Virus record (IMG/VR): IMGVR_UViG_3300007735_000670
Coordinates: 1-35,781 of that record
Reading direction: 5' to 3' (one strand)
DNA from: a virus
DNA length: 35,781 bases
The notes under the pieces were generated by a model, which saw only the letters and a program-made list of their open reading frames with translations, searched no databases and had not been told where the DNA came from. Position numbers and translations under genes: made by a program. Shown in pieces: positions 3,826-29,367 of this stretch; position 1 is the first letter of the stretch, and the number at the start of each line of letters is the position of its first letter.

Positions 3826-5550
3826 GTGTCACTTCCATCACGACTTCTTGGTGCTAACCCGTCAGTTCAAGTTTCATCTTTATTGACGGGTGCTATCACC
3901 ACGCCTTCTGCTAAAGGTAAAACCATTATTCCAGTTGATTTTCTAGTTGTCGCTGGTGCTGGCGGTGGTGGAACTAATCACGGTGGTGGCGGTGGTGCTG
4001 GCGGACTTCGCTCAAGCGTAACTGCTACTGGCGGTGGCGCAAGTTTAGAATCTTCTCTTGCTCTTTTACCATCAACTTCATACACAGTAACCGTAGGTGG
4101 TGGTGGAAGTGCTAACACAAGTGGCAGTAATTCTGTATTTTCAACTATCACCTCAACTGGAGGTGGGCGTGGACAACAACCTTCCGTAAATAGTGCGGCA
4201 AGTGGCGGTTCAGGTGGCGGTGGTGGTTCTTATGGCGATGGTAATTCATCGCAAACTGGTGGTGCTGGGACAGCAAGTCAAGGTTTTTCAGGTGGTAGCG
4301 GTTCTAATAATGCTGAACCACAAAGAGGTGCTGGCGGTGGTGGCGCTGGAGCGCAAGCGGCAAATGTTGTTGGTGGTGGTAGTGGTGCGGCAGGAGCAGG
4401 TGGAGCAGGTGTAGCCGTTGCTATTTCAGGTTCTTCAGTAACTTATGCTGGTGGCGGTGGTGGAGGTTCACAAAATACAGTTGCTGGTGGTGCTGGAGGT
4501 TCAGGTGGCGGTGGCGCAGGTGGTGGATTTGGAACTGAAAATGGAACTGCTGGAACTGCTAACACAGGCGGTGGCGGTGGTGGTGGTTCAGGTAATAGCC
4601 GCACAGGTGGTGCAGGTGGCTCAGGCGTTGTAATCCTTCGCGCTCTTACTTCAGAAGGAACATTTATTGGTGGAACTCAAACCACTTCAGGTTCATACAC
4701 AATTTATACATTCAATTCGTCAGGAACTTTCTATACAGGTTCGGCTTATGCCACAGGTGGAACTGTTGCTTATGACGGAACTTATTTTTATCACGCATTT
4801 ACTTCATCGGGAACATTTACACCAACACGGTCTTTATCCGTTGATTATTTAGTAGTCGCTGGAGGCGGCGGCGGCAATTCAGGCGGCGGTGGTGCGGGCG
4901 GTTATCGCACAGCAACTTCACAATCTGTTACTGCTACTAATTACACAATTACAGTTGGCGCTGGCGGTGCTTGGGGTAATCAAGGTACTAGCAGTAGTTT
5001 TGCTTCTTTTGCCGCAACTGGTGGTGGTTCGGGTGGAAATTCATCACCTACTAATCGCGGTGGCTCAGGTGGTGGTGGAGCGCGTGATGGAGGTTCTTCA
5101 CCTGGAACGGGAAACCTTGGTGGTTATACCCCTTCTGAGGGTAATAACGGAGCGGGCAATAACAACACAGGTTGGTGCGGTGCTGGTGGTGGTGGTGGTA
5201 TAGGTGCCGCTGGTTCTGCTGGCTCAGGTAATGGCTCTCCAAGCGGCGAAGTTGGTGGCGCTGGTGGTATAGGTACTTATACAGCAATTTCAGGTGGGGC
5301 GACGACTGGACTCGGTGAACTTTATTCAGGTAATTATTACTTCGCTGGTGGCGGTGCTGGAGCAGTTGGAAGCAGTAACGGTTCTGCCGCACAAGGAGGA
5401 AAAGGTGGCGGTGGTCGTGGTGGAAATAACGCATCCATTACCGCTGATAATGGAACTGCTAATACAGGCGGTGGCGGCGGTGGTGGTGCTAGTGGCAGTA
5501 ACTCAGGCTCAGGTGGCTCGGGTGTTGTTATAGTTCGGTACGCGGCATAA
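3826..5550 (+). CDS. glycine-rich tail adhesin 1 (two tandem glycine-rich domains)
   Basis: A 574-residue protein starting at a GTG with an AGGAG upstream. After a ~35-residue N-terminal segment come two copies of a glycine-rich domain. Each opens with D-(F/Y)-LVVAG and a Gly run, passes through YTVTVG or YTITVG and many GGGGGG stretches, and closes with GSGVVI-(L/V)-R. The linker contains TYFYHAFTSSGTF. Such domains are widespread in phage fibres; in the structurally known S16-type adhesin, glycine runs form a polyglycine II helical sandwich that displays host-binding loops. I infer a distal receptor-binding adhesin. It is a paralogue of the 5964-7640 product. Confidence 0.8.
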   Translation: MSLPSRLLGANPSVQVSSLLTGAITTPSAKGKTIIPVDFLVVAGAGGGGTNHGGGGGAGGLRSSVTATGGGASLESSLALLPSTSYTVTVGGGGSANTSGSNSVFSTITSTGGGRGQQPSVNSAASGGSGGGGGSYGDGNSSQTGGAGTASQGFSGGSGSNNAEPQRGAGGGGAGAQAANVVGGGSGAAGAGGAGVAVAISGSSVTYAGGGGGGSQNTVAGGAGGSGGGGAGGGFGTENGTAGTANTGGGGGGGSGNSRTGGAGGSGVVILRALTSEGTFIGGTQTTSGSYTIYTFNSSGTFYTGSAYATGGTVAYDGTYFYHAFTSSGTFTPTRSLSVDYLVVAGGGGGNSGGGGAGGYRTATSQSVTATNYTITVGAGGAWGNQGTSSSFASFAATGGGSGGNSSPTNRGGSGGGGARDGGSSPGTGNLGGYTPSEGNNGAGNNNTGWCGAGGGGGIGAAGSAGSGNGSPSGEVGGAGGIGTYTAISGGATTGLGELYSGNYYFAGGGAGAVGSSNGSAAQGGKGGGGRGGNNASITADNGTANTGGGGGGGASGSNSGSGGSGVVIVRYAA

Positions 5551-5963: not shown

Positions 5964-7640
5964 ATGACAACACATCTCGGCTTACAGCGCATCATGATTC
6001 CTGGGTCACAAGTTTCGGCTTTGACCACAGGTAATATCACGCTGACTGGAGCGCGAGGTCAATTTGGAATTTTTCTTTCTCAAGTTGATAACCTACTTGT
6101 AGTTGCAGGTGGTGGCGGTAGCGGTGCTGAAGGTGGCGGTGGCGGTGGTGCTGGAGGTTATAGAACAGCAACTAATCTTGCAGTAACTCCCGATACTTCC
6201 TACACGGTTACAGTTGGAGCAGGTGGAGCGGGTTCTGCTAACTCAGGAGCGCAGGGTTCAAATTCTACATTTTTAACAATTACATCTACTGGTGGCGGTG
6301 GTTCTAACGCTTTTGCTAATGGAAGCGCTGGTGGTTCAGGCTCAGGTGGTGGTGGTGCGGTAACAACTGGTGGCGCTGGTAACCAAGGTGGATTTACACC
6401 CGTAGAAGGTTACGCTGGTGGTAACGGAGCGTTTCCATCCTCTCGTTCAGGTGGCGGTGGCGGTGGTTCAAGTGCTGTCGGTAGTAATGCTAGTGGAACA
6501 AATGGCGGTGCTGGCGGTGCTGGTACTGCTAACTCAATCACAGGAACATCTGTAACTTACGCAGGTGGCGGTGGTGGTGGTAATAATGGTGCTGGAACTG
6601 GCGGTGCTGGCGGTGCTGGCGGTGGTGGTCTTGGCGGTGGCACTAATCAAACACAAACAAGCGGAACTATAAACACAGGCGGTGGTGGTGGAGGTCAGGG
6701 TCCTGACAATTACCCAGGCTCAATGGATGGTGGCTCAGGAGTAGTCATTCTTGCTTACGCTGGTACACAAAAAGCCATAGGTGGATTTATTTCATCATCA
6801 GGCGGAAATACAATTCATAGATTTGTTTCAACATCAGTTTTTCGTACAAATTTACTTGGGGCTAAAGCAACTGGTGGAATGGTTACGACAGATGGAACTT
6901 ATTATTATCATGCTTTCCCATCAACTTCAGCGTTTGTTCCTACTGAAAGTTTAACTGCCGACATTCTTGTTGTCGCAGGTGGCGGCGGTGCTGGAAACAA
7001 CGGTGGCGGTGGTGGTGGTGCTGGAGGTTTACTTTATTTCTCTAGTCAATCACTTACAACTACAAGTTACACCGTAACAGTTGGCGCGGGAGGTACTACT
7101 CACCCTACTGCTAGTGGTGCTGGTAATACTGGTTCAGACTCACAGTTTGGTGCTTTGACCCTTGTTAAAGGCGGCGGCGGTGGCGGTTCTAACATCGGAC
7201 CTACAAACGGAAAAACAGGTGGTTCAGGTGGCGGTTCACACGCATCAAACGGTGGTACAGGTGGCGCGGCAACATCAGGTCAAGGTTTTGCTGGTGGTGA
7301 TTATGTTGTTTCTAACTCAGGTGGCGGTGGTGGTGGTGCTGGTGAGGCAGGAAATACAGATGGCGGTTCTCAAGGTGGAGATGGTCTAAGTACCTATTCT
7401 TCTTTTGGTGCGGCAACTGGTTTTGGACACAATGTAAGCGGAACTTATTGGTTTGCTGGTGGCGGTGGTGGTGGTTCTAATAATTTGAACGCTACTGGTG
7501 CTGGCGGTACTGGCGGTGGTGGTGGAGATGGTCAAGATGGACTACCGAATACAGGCGGTGGTGGTGGTACCACATGGAGCGCTTATAGAAGATTAGGTGA
7601 TGGCGGTTCAGGTATTGTCATCGTTAGATACGCGGTTTAA
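5964..7640 (+). CDS. glycine-rich tail adhesin 2 (two tandem glycine-rich domains)
   Basis: A 558-residue paralogue of the 3826-5550 product with the same architecture: a short N-terminus (SQVSALTTGNITLTGARG), glycine-rich domain one opening NLLVVAGGGG, a linker with TYYYHAFPSTSAF, and domain two opening DILVVAGGGG and closing GSGIVIVRYAV. The N-termini of the two adhesins are only loosely alike, while the domain boundaries are well kept. I infer that both are mounted on the tail and recognise different or variable receptors. The GGT/GGC-rich coding DNA is repetitive at nucleotide level and could promote recombination between the copies. Confidence 0.8.
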   Translation: MTTHLGLQRIMIPGSQVSALTTGNITLTGARGQFGIFLSQVDNLLVVAGGGGSGAEGGGGGGAGGYRTATNLAVTPDTSYTVTVGAGGAGSANSGAQGSNSTFLTITSTGGGGSNAFANGSAGGSGSGGGGAVTTGGAGNQGGFTPVEGYAGGNGAFPSSRSGGGGGGSSAVGSNASGTNGGAGGAGTANSITGTSVTYAGGGGGGNNGAGTGGAGGAGGGGLGGGTNQTQTSGTINTGGGGGGQGPDNYPGSMDGGSGVVILAYAGTQKAIGGFISSSGGNTIHRFVSTSVFRTNLLGAKATGGMVTTDGTYYYHAFPSTSAFVPTESLTADILVVAGGGGAGNNGGGGGGAGGLLYFSSQSLTTTSYTVTVGAGGTTHPTASGAGNTGSDSQFGALTLVKGGGGGGSNIGPTNGKTGGSGGGSHASNGGTGGAATSGQGFAGGDYVVSNSGGGGGGAGEAGNTDGGSQGGDGLSTYSSFGAATGFGHNVSGTYWFAGGGGGGSNNLNATGAGGTGGGGGDGQDGLPNTGGGGGTTWSAYRRLGDGGSGIVIVRYAV

Positions 7641-27663: not shown

Positions 27664-28733
27664 TGAAGTTCATAGAACTTTTTGCTGGTATCGGAGCCTT
27701 CCGCTTAGGACTTGAAAGAACAGGTCATGAGTGCGTGTGGGCTAATGAATGGCTTGAGAGACCTAGGAGTATTTATGCCCGAAACTTCGGAGAACAACCT
27801 GACGGACGAGATATTAGAGATGTTTCCGCTGGAGACCTTCCTGATGCCGACCTCCTCGTTGGAGGATTCCCTTGTGCGACTTTTTCAGTTGCAGGAAAGC
27901 GAACTGGCTTCTCCTTGGATGACACCCGCGGGACACTCGCTTTTGAAATGTTTAGACTCGCTCACGAAAAATCCATACCGTATCTCCTCTTTGAGAATGT
28001 CAAAGGACTCCTCAACCACGACGGAGGAAGAACCTTTGAAATCATCCTCGAAGTCTTGGATGGCTTGGGGTATGACTGTCAATGGGAATTGCTTGACAGC
28101 CAAAATTTCGGAGTCCCGCAACACCGAGAAAGGGTATTCCTTATCGGACATCTTAGAGGAAAACCCCGACCAAAAGTATTTCCTATCGGAGCAACAGGTA
28201 GAAGCAATGATGGCGCGAACTCGGAAGAACGAGAAGGAAGGCAGGGGCTTTTCTCCGACATTTCTCCGACCCTCGACGCTCACTACTACAAAGGAGGAAA
28301 CTCTCGACAGTATGTAGTTGAGCAGTTCATTCGTAGAGAGAATTCTTTTAGAACTTTCGAGAATGTGGCTCCAACACTATTGGCTCACATGGGAACAGGT
28401 GGAAACAATGTTCCATTTGTTAGACCAGTTCTTGATGTAGCAAGAGTAAACAAATCACCAAACGGGCGACTCATTAAAGATGATGGCGACCCGATGTACA
28501 CGATAACAGCGCAAGACCGCCACGGAGTTCAAATTGGGGATGAGGACGGCTTTGCGATTAGAAAACTAACTCCCTTGGAGTGCGAGCGCCTTCAAGGATT
28601 ACCCGATGGATGGACGGAGTTTTATCACGATGGACGACGAGTTTCAGATTCCGAAAGATACGAACGGTGCGGACGGACAATCACTATCCCAGTCGTGGAA
28701 GCGATTGGTAGAAGGCTTCATGAGTTCTACTGA
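27663..28733 (+). CDS. cytosine-C5 DNA methyltransferase, candidate carboxymethyltransferase
   Basis: A 356-residue protein with all main C5-methyltransferase motifs in order: I (ELFAGIGAFRLGLE, 5-18), IV (GGFPCATFSVAGKR, 67-80, catalytic C71), VI (ENVKGLL, 111-117), VIII (QHRERVF, 153-159), a ~140-residue target-recognition region, IX (RKLTPLECERLQGLPDGW, 300-317) and X (CGRTITIPVVEAIG, 336-349). Two positions are unusual: PCA for the normal PCQ, and R338 where the family nearly always has Asn (GN-S/A-V). Because the next gene is CmoA-like, I infer that it may use carboxy-SAM to make 5-carboxymethylcytosine. Ordinary methylation, for example to evade restriction, is the conservative reading. 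Confidence 0.9.
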   Translation: MKFIELFAGIGAFRLGLERTGHECVWANEWLERPRSIYARNFGEQPDGRDIRDVSAGDLPDADLLVGGFPCATFSVAGKRTGFSLDDTRGTLAFEMFRLAHEKSIPYLLFENVKGLLNHDGGRTFEIILEVLDGLGYDCQWELLDSQNFGVPQHRERVFLIGHLRGKPRPKVFPIGATGRSNDGANSEEREGRQGLFSDISPTLDAHYYKGGNSRQYVVEQFIRRENSFRTFENVAPTLLAHMGTGGNNVPFVRPVLDVARVNKSPNGRLIKDDGDPMYTITAQDRHGVQIGDEDGFAIRKLTPLECERLQGLPDGWTEFYHDGRRVSDSERYERCGRTITIPVVEAIGRRLHEFY

Positions 28734-29367
28734 GCCATTCTCATTCGAGACGATTGAGAACTTTGATGAACATATTGCACAATCAATTCCAAACTATCAC
28801 ACATTAACTGAGGCAATCTGTGACTTGAGTACATACTTCATGACTGAAGATACTCAGGTGATTGACCTTGGCTGTTCAACTGGAACGCTGTTAGAGCGAC
28901 TTCCTCATCGTGGCAAGAAAATCGGAATCGATATAGCCGATAACTTATTGCCTGAGTCCCATGATGAAACTATCTATGTTCGCAAAGACCTACGCGCTTT
29001 CAATGGATTCGGTAAGTCCAGTTTAATCATTTCAAACTTCACACTTCAGTTCTTGCCCTATGAGGACAGACCGCGCATCCTCGAGGTCATCTATGAATCT
29101 CTAGTTGAGGGTGGGGCTTTTATATGGGCAGAGAAGGTACGAGAAGAATCGGGCGAACTTGAGCAGGTAATCAACGGCGCTCACTATGACTTCAAGCGTA
29201 AGTCTTTTAGCCCTGAACAGATACTTAACAAAGAGCGCGACCTTCGACCTATGATGAAGGTGAACTCATCAATGCGAAATCAGATATTGGCAGAGAACGC
29301 AGGGTTCACAGTAGGCACAATGTTTTGGAAGTTCTTCAACTTCGAGGCGTGGATATACATTAAATGA
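28720..29367 (+). CDS. cmoA: CmoA-like carboxy-S-adenosyl-L-methionine synthase
   Basis: A 215-residue class I SAM-binding protein that follows E. coli CmoA (247 residues) along its length. Landmarks are FDEHIAQSIPNYHTLTEAI (15-33), the SAM loop VIDLGCSTGTLL (47-58), SNFTLQFLPYEDR (105-117), WAEKV (136-140) and HYDFKR (155-160). R173 falls at the place of the CmoA Arg199 reported to hold the carboxylate of carboxy-SAM. CmoA uses SAM and prephenate. CmoB, which passes the group to tRNA, is not encoded here. I chose the ATG at 28720 (AGAAGG upstream, 14-base overlap with the methyltransferase) over the one at 28606. Confidence 0.85.
   Translation: MSSTEPFSFETIENFDEHIAQSIPNYHTLTEAICDLSTYFMTEDTQVIDLGCSTGTLLERLPHRGKKIGIDIADNLLPESHDETIYVRKDLRAFNGFGKSSLIISNFTLQFLPYEDRPRILEVIYESLVEGGAFIWAEKVREESGELEQVINGAHYDFKRKSFSPEQILNKERDLRPMMKVNSSMRNQILAENAGFTVGTMFWKFFNFEAWIYIK

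Follow-up and report, generated by a model that had tools for sequence, protein, structure and literature searches.

A CmoA-like gene overlapping an arginine-type C5-cytosine methyltransferase homologue: a probable phage cassette for DNA carboxymethylation

The DNA analysed here (the window) is a linear IMG/VR record of 35,781 bases, which may or may not be a full genome. A C5-cytosine methyltransferase (MTase) homologue, a CmoA-like protein and a tandem ParB_N protein are encoded one after the other on the same strand (Table 1), and no tRNA genes are present in the window. Megablast of positions 10000-34000 against the GenBank phages gave no match; the best matches of the large terminase are Arthrobacter phages, with 51-53% identity. 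CmoA-like genes were found, at E ≤ 1e-3, in 72 GenBank phage records, two of them from Streptomyces phages, and Gordonia phage Evaa appeared as a further carrier at a laxer threshold. Because of the terminase and of the occurrence of CmoA-like genes in Streptomyces and Gordonia phages, the actinobacterial host proposed in the initial annotation is plausible, and the presence of CmoA in an actinophage is not unique to the window. Elsewhere in the window, two proteins with glycine-rich Gly_rich_2 domains (PF21722), both phrog_2295, are encoded at 3826-5550 and 5964-7640 and are perhaps tail-fibre parts.

Table 1. Features at the CmoA-like locus of the window.
Feature	Position	Strand	Remarks
HNH gene and HTH gene			upstream of the C5-MTase gene
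C5-cytosine DNA methyltransferase homologue, 356 aa	27663-28733	+	predicted DNA cytosine carboxymethyltransferase
Catalytic Cys71 codon, GFPC motif	27873-27875	+	equivalent to HhaI Cys81 and SpCmoX Cys98 (in SPPC)
Arg338 codon, CGG	28674-28676	+	place of M.HhaI Asn304 / SpCmoX Arg350
CmoA-like Cx-SAM synthase (predicted), 215 aa	28720-29367	+	TIGR00740, phrog_4752 and PDB matches
E172-R173-D-L-R176	29233-29247	+	R/E pair swapped relative to E. coli R199/E203
Tandem ParB_N protein, 395 aa	29364-30551	+	start overlaps CmoA stop; PF02195, two stretches
Small and large terminase genes			downstream of the ParB_N gene

The CmoA-like protein matched TIGR00740 along residues 11-214 of its 215 (E = 1.3e-29, 103.6 bits), about 70 bits above the next unrelated family, BioC (31.8 bits), and was also recognised by phrog_4752, 'tRNA methyltransferase' (E = 1.8e-57), and by the CmoA/YecO chains 1im8, 4iwn and 4gek of the PDB (E = 4e-24 to 2e-20). 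With the CmoA models far ahead of any other family, the first assignment to CmoA, and not to the ordinary SAM methyltransferases, was confirmed; the motifs reported there are also present, with NFTLQFLP starting at residue 106, HYDFKR at 155 and KERDLR, which includes R173, at 171. The score lies, however, below the equivalog cut-off of TIGR00740 (193.3 bits), and we therefore classed the product as a phage CmoA-like protein and not as the bacterial equivalog. For comparison, the Rheinheimera CmoA scored 319.6 bits and the CmoA of Synechococcus phage S-B05, near kin of the biochemically proven S-B43 enzyme, 115.6 bits, which is also under the cut-off. A longer frame for this gene opens at 28606; the likely start is nevertheless 28720, because in the relatives L068, L128 and L136 the equivalent Met is closely preceded by stop codons.

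In E. coli CmoA, Arg199 forms a salt bridge to the carboxylate (PMC3663124). The proposal that R173 takes this place in the window protein did not hold, as R173 aligns with E. coli Ser200 and is not conserved; the Arg199 column is occupied by E172, and R176 falls in the column of E. coli E203, one helical turn on. The Arg equivalent to R176 is common to the enzymes of S-B05 and S-CRM01, which have the same E/R arrangement, and, in 55 aligned CmoA rows, Arg was observed at 199 only in 11, at 203 only in 26 (these two phages included), at neither position in 18 and at both in none. R176 is probably the carboxylate-binding Arg of the window protein. Moreover, nine of the ten cofactor and active-site residues checked are kept (E. 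coli = window: Y39=Y26, D62=D49, G64=G51, S66=S53, D89=D71, D117=D90, N132=N106, F137=F111 and E164=E138), the sole exception being E. coli N90, which corresponds to I72. A further type of CmoA-like protein, found in L302, L323, L363, L370, L309, L350 and similar loci, has Asp at the place of E164 and is devoid of Arg at both the 199 and 203 columns. The genes beside them encode Arg-type MTases, belonging either to the clade of the window enzyme or to others, and the manner in which these CmoA-like proteins bind or produce the cofactor may be different.

The CmoA-like gene had been described as lone, which was wrong: its start overlaps by 14 nt the 3' end of the C5-MTase gene, a partner that had been overlooked because only CmoB was looked for. 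The encoded protein matched PF00145 (E = 6.4e-71) and TIGR00675 (259 bits) and, by phmmer, M.HhaI (E = 1e-46) and SpCmoX (8YF3, E = 7e-11). A pair of this kind has already been published by Yang et al. (2025; PMC12783734) for the Synechococcus phage S-B43, in which CmoA makes carboxy-SAM (Cx-SAM) and CmoX, a C5-MTase homologue, uses it to produce 5-carboxymethylcytosine (5cxmC), while a further enzyme, CmoY, adds glycine. As reported in the same paper, Arg350 of SpCmoX replaces Asn304 of HhaI and contacts the carboxymethyl group, the wild-type enzyme takes only Cx-SAM and rejects SAM, and a survey retrieved 5,615 sequences having both SPPC and R350. Among the open PubMed Central papers, a scope that takes in few subscription papers and little of bioRxiv, no second report on natural 5cxmC was found.

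In the window MTase, Arg338 was assigned by alignment to residues 271-315 of M.HhaI, plus the motif columns of wider alignments. Thus, three of the published features of CmoX, namely the C5-MTase fold with the catalytic Cys71, the Arg (R338) and a CmoA on the same contig, are found here, and the fourth, SPPC, is replaced by GFPC. Judging from its sequence, the window MTase would work like CmoX, yet it falls outside the published sequence definition, and the pair is a variant that escapes the SPPC criterion. The AF2 model of the MTase (pLDDT 66.3, with a catalytic core mostly >90 and a target-recognition part, residues 178-287, under 50) was closest to M.HhaI (Z 27.0, rmsd 2.2, 228 aligned residues), and the comparison with SpCmoX 8YF3 gave Z 23.0 and rmsd 3.2 over 263.

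To what extent the two genes go together was evident from the loci collected. Of the 80 found with the window CmoA, 75 have both a C5-MTase and CmoA, always in the order MTase-CmoA on the same strand and always with the Arg, and in the other five the contig starts inside or right at CmoA. The search was then widened to queries with more distant alignments of CmoA and with the window MTase, and GenBank phage loci were added; altogether, the two genes occurred together in 332 loci, the CmoA-like gene alone in 71 and the MTase alone in 2. The CmoA-only loci include 31 of the 33 from bacterial or archaeal genomes, many of which are probably ordinary chromosomal CmoA, as well as contig-edge cases and some phages. 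In the remaining two genome loci, L373 (Spirosoma arboris) and L392 (Nonomuraea cypriaca), which are perhaps prophages, a C5-MTase lies close to the CmoA-like gene.

Since the same contigs occur several times in the 405-sequence set, sequences were counted as clusters at 90% identity. The 299 loci of the CmoA-first set with readable motifs formed 82 clusters, 76 with Arg (SPPC/Arg 37, GFPC/Arg 35, GSPC/Arg 3, GTPC/Arg 1), five with Gly (GSPC/Gly 3, GFPC/Gly 2) and one, L354, read by the script as Met and relabelled by eye as Asn (QANGMTV). Therefore, Arg is not universal in the CmoA-linked MTases. Gly at the place of HhaI Asn304 was observed in L004, L139, L279, L286 and L287, which belong to Staphylococcus-type phages and IMG/VR contigs. 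In the control that started from the MTase, the query alignment joined five Asn-type MTases with that of the window, and the 80 loci found were taken together with 14 GenBank phage loci, for a total of 94: all five MTases with CmoA had Arg, and of the 89 without CmoA 85 had Asn, three were unreadable and one was a poorly aligned Lys. Fisher's test on the 90 readable R/N loci gave p = 2e-8, a value that overstates the association because related sequences are not independent.

Five phages without a nearby MTase were searched over the whole record. Erwinia phage Y3 proved to have an Arg-type C5-MTase about 17 kb away, and PF00145 gave no match in the whole records of Alcaligenes phage Afa-NA1, Gordonia phage Evaa and fecal phage MT835562, nor in the short Salmonella phage contig OR851014. 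In Y3 (vB_EamM_Y3, L565), the C5-MTase frame is 742 aa long (about 30.4-32.7 kb of the record), has Arg in motif X and contains an intein-like stretch from the Cys of SPPC to just before a second Cys; the genes about 17 kb from it encode CmoA and a CmoY-like protein.

Loci anchored on the terminase allowed us to follow the region independently of the pair. In this set of 80 loci, 34 extend more than 3.3 kb upstream, and here MTase, CmoA and ParB were all present in 25, ParB without both in nine, and only one member of the pair in none. In the 11 loci with 2.5-3.3 kb upstream, seven have all three genes, two have ParB only and two have CmoA and ParB, the short piece of contig that remains there containing no MTase. 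The ParB_N gene is constant with or without CmoX-CmoA, which are not in view in 11 relatives having it, and therefore it is not specific to carboxymethylation; its AF2 model, of low confidence (pLDDT 65.5, pTM 0.33), shows a repeated two-part layout. The place of CmoX-CmoA upstream of ParB_N is filled in L547 (102-2441) and L556 (1343-2554) by N6_N4 DNA methylases, which point to an exchange of DNA-modification cassettes, and in L536 (3139-3492) by an AdoMet decarboxylase-like gene (PF02675, E = 5.5e-14), that is, by a SAM-altering enzyme. Different DNA-modification genes seem able to replace one another at this site.

The history of the Arg was analysed on a tree of 91 MTases from which the motif columns had been removed, a sample with Asn-type SPPC enzymes outside it and without the badly aligned L459 (read as Lys). 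The window clade consists of 13 GFPC/Arg enzymes (support 100/99) and sits inside a group of 32 rows (100/98) that also holds Asn enzymes; a second, distinct group comprises the 21 SPPC/Arg enzymes (100/99). Five changes between Arg and not-Arg were required, gains and losses being counted alike, and L360, with Arg, is sister to L417, with Asn (100/94). Placing all 40 Arg rows in one clade was rejected (delta lnL 211.9, p 3e-87); the union of the window and SPPC (SpCmoX) clades alone was not (AU test, p 0.079). Hence, more than one change at this residue is in general well supported by the sequences, and an origin of the window clade separate from that of SpCmoX is only favoured; although the two lie apart in the tree, the AU value led us to drop a firm claim of separate Arg gain. 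A tentative scenario, which may well turn out otherwise, is that Arg replaced Asn repeatedly beside CmoA and that the window group is one of these origins, leaving bare 5cxmC and not an amide.

We also considered whether restriction sites tell something about the target of the MTase. The window has no AGCT, GATC, CCGG or ACGT (71-161 expected for each), five GGCC and 124 GCGC; in 33 terminase-anchored loci (484 kb), AGCT is absent against about 2,026 expected, and GCGC is not avoided. The observed/expected ratio of GCGC was 1.32 in 23 of the 32 loci with CmoX-CmoA and 1.33 in 10 of the 11 without, L555, in which ParB starts at the contig end, being left out. As the loci with and without the pair do not differ, the idea that the window MTase protects GCGC as its target was dropped; moreover, the loss of palindromes is not explained by the presence of CmoX-CmoA.

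The overlap of the CmoA-like gene with an MTase having a carboxymethyl-permitting Arg led us to conclude that the DNA modified by the pair is probably that of the phage itself. We consider it very probable that the two genes form a DNA base-modification cassette in which a CmoA-like Cx-SAM synthase and a C5-MTase homologue generate 5-carboxymethylcytosine. The CmoA-like enzyme would convert SAM into Cx-SAM with host prephenate as the carboxyl donor, the use of prephenate and its supply by the host being presumed from the CmoA family. The MTase homologue would then flip a cytosine out of the phage DNA, Cys71 would attack C6, and Arg338 would hold the carboxymethyl group that is transferred from Cx-SAM to C5. 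In published work, both reactions were demonstrated with a distant homologue of the pair, and by analogy the window proteins should catalyse the same ones; the enzyme would recognise a target sequence of its own, and the benefit would most likely be that the phage DNA is hidden from host restriction. Against carboxymethylation we counted the CmoA score under the cut-off and the missing Arg199, the lack of SPPC in the MTase, the partners with Gly or Asn, the L302/L323 type of CmoA and the target-recognition part of the MTase model with pLDDT under 50.

It could be asked whether 5cxmC is only a handle that some enzyme not yet recognised, perhaps the tandem ParB_N protein, extends to a larger base, as suggested by the addition of glycine by S-B43 CmoY and by the position of ParB_N, which is the usual downstream neighbour here; ParBc genes were also often seen by Yang et al. 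(PMC12783734). Such an extension appears unlikely: in the 15 related records, which may be incomplete, the CmoY-type ligase family PF00733 (Asn_synthase) was found in none, and the same holds for PF13535 (ATP-grasp_4) and PF00501 (AMP-binding), in a search that covered these three families. Furthermore, phmmer with two CmoY queries against the window ORFs of at least 80 aa gave no match, and ParB_N also occurs where CmoX-CmoA are not in view. Bare 5cxmC would thus be the simplest reading of the product, given that no CmoY-type ligase was found, other ligases being possible.

Much less probable is that the MTase is an ordinary SAM-dependent enzyme producing 5mC and that the CmoA-like protein serves otherwise, for instance by draining SAM from those host defences that depend on it. 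The MTase retains the PF00145 and TIGR00675 matches of the C5-MTase family, and SAM depletion is raised as an open question by Yang et al. (PMC12783734); however, the replacement of Asn by Arg tracks the presence of CmoA almost perfectly, the presence of one gene goes with that of the other in the terminase-anchored loci, and SpCmoX, with the same Arg, rejects SAM (PMC12783734). It is just as hard, if not harder, to maintain that the CmoA-like enzyme makes a SAM derivative other than Cx-SAM for the Arg-type MTase: the replacement of R199 by E172, with the Arg shifted to 176, and the L302-type partners devoid of both Arg would fit such a product, but the E/R arrangement of the window is also that of the enzymes from S-B05 and S-CRM01, which are related to the proven SpCmoA, and Glu164 and eight of the nine other cofactor residues checked are kept. 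Finally, that the phage feeds Cx-SAM to the CmoB-dependent tRNA wobble pathway of the host, tuning translation, agrees with membership of the CmoA family at the level of homology and is the least credible option, also doubted in the initial annotation, as CmoB (TIGR00452) was found neither in the window, a linear record, nor in any of 15 related records and nine named CmoA-bearing phages, there are no tRNA genes in the window and the overlapping gene encodes a DNA MTase.

With carboxymethylation of DNA as the preferred reading, a 'tRNA gene' that seemed puzzling for want of a partner becomes part of a testable DNA-modification pathway. The published filter of SPPC plus Arg would miss whole groups of likely carboxymethyltransferases, and an HhaI-like carboxymethyltransferase would bring a target specificity of its own, of use in labelling DNA enzymatically. 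Should the Arg have arisen several times, a new base chemistry would lie one substitution away from methylation, given a phage CmoA.

Compared with known systems, the window shares with the bacterial CmoA-CmoB pathway (E. coli 4iwn/4gek) a homologous Cx-SAM synthase in which most of the residues in contact with the cofactor are conserved; it differs in the lack of CmoB, in the swap of R199/E203 to E172/R176 and in the score below the equivalog cut-off. Streptomyces phage TurkishDelight (L140) and Gordonia phage Evaa (L141) are likewise actinophages with CmoA-like genes near ParB_N genes, but their CmoA is more distant (26-28% identity to the window); a gene annotated 'glutamine amidotransferase domain' adjoins the CmoA-like gene of TurkishDelight, and Evaa is without a PF00145 match. 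The M.HhaI-type MTases are the closest solved structures to the window enzyme by both sequence and fold and have the GFPC motif, whereas the window has Arg338 in place of Asn304 and a target-recognition part of low confidence in the model. The engineered carboxymethyltransferase M.MpeI N374K, as cited in PMC12783734, has a basic residue that mirrors the CmoX Arg; unlike the window enzyme, it is a laboratory variant, with Lys instead of Arg and CG specificity. The S-B43 CmoA-CmoX-CmoY system differs from the window in having SPPC and not GFPC, in its branch of the C5-MTase tree and in its CmoY, none being found in the window, where the order is MTase-CmoA-ParB and CmoA is 38% identical to that of S-B43; the two have in common a CmoA beside an Arg-type C5-MTase, the absence of CmoB and a ParB_N gene often near.
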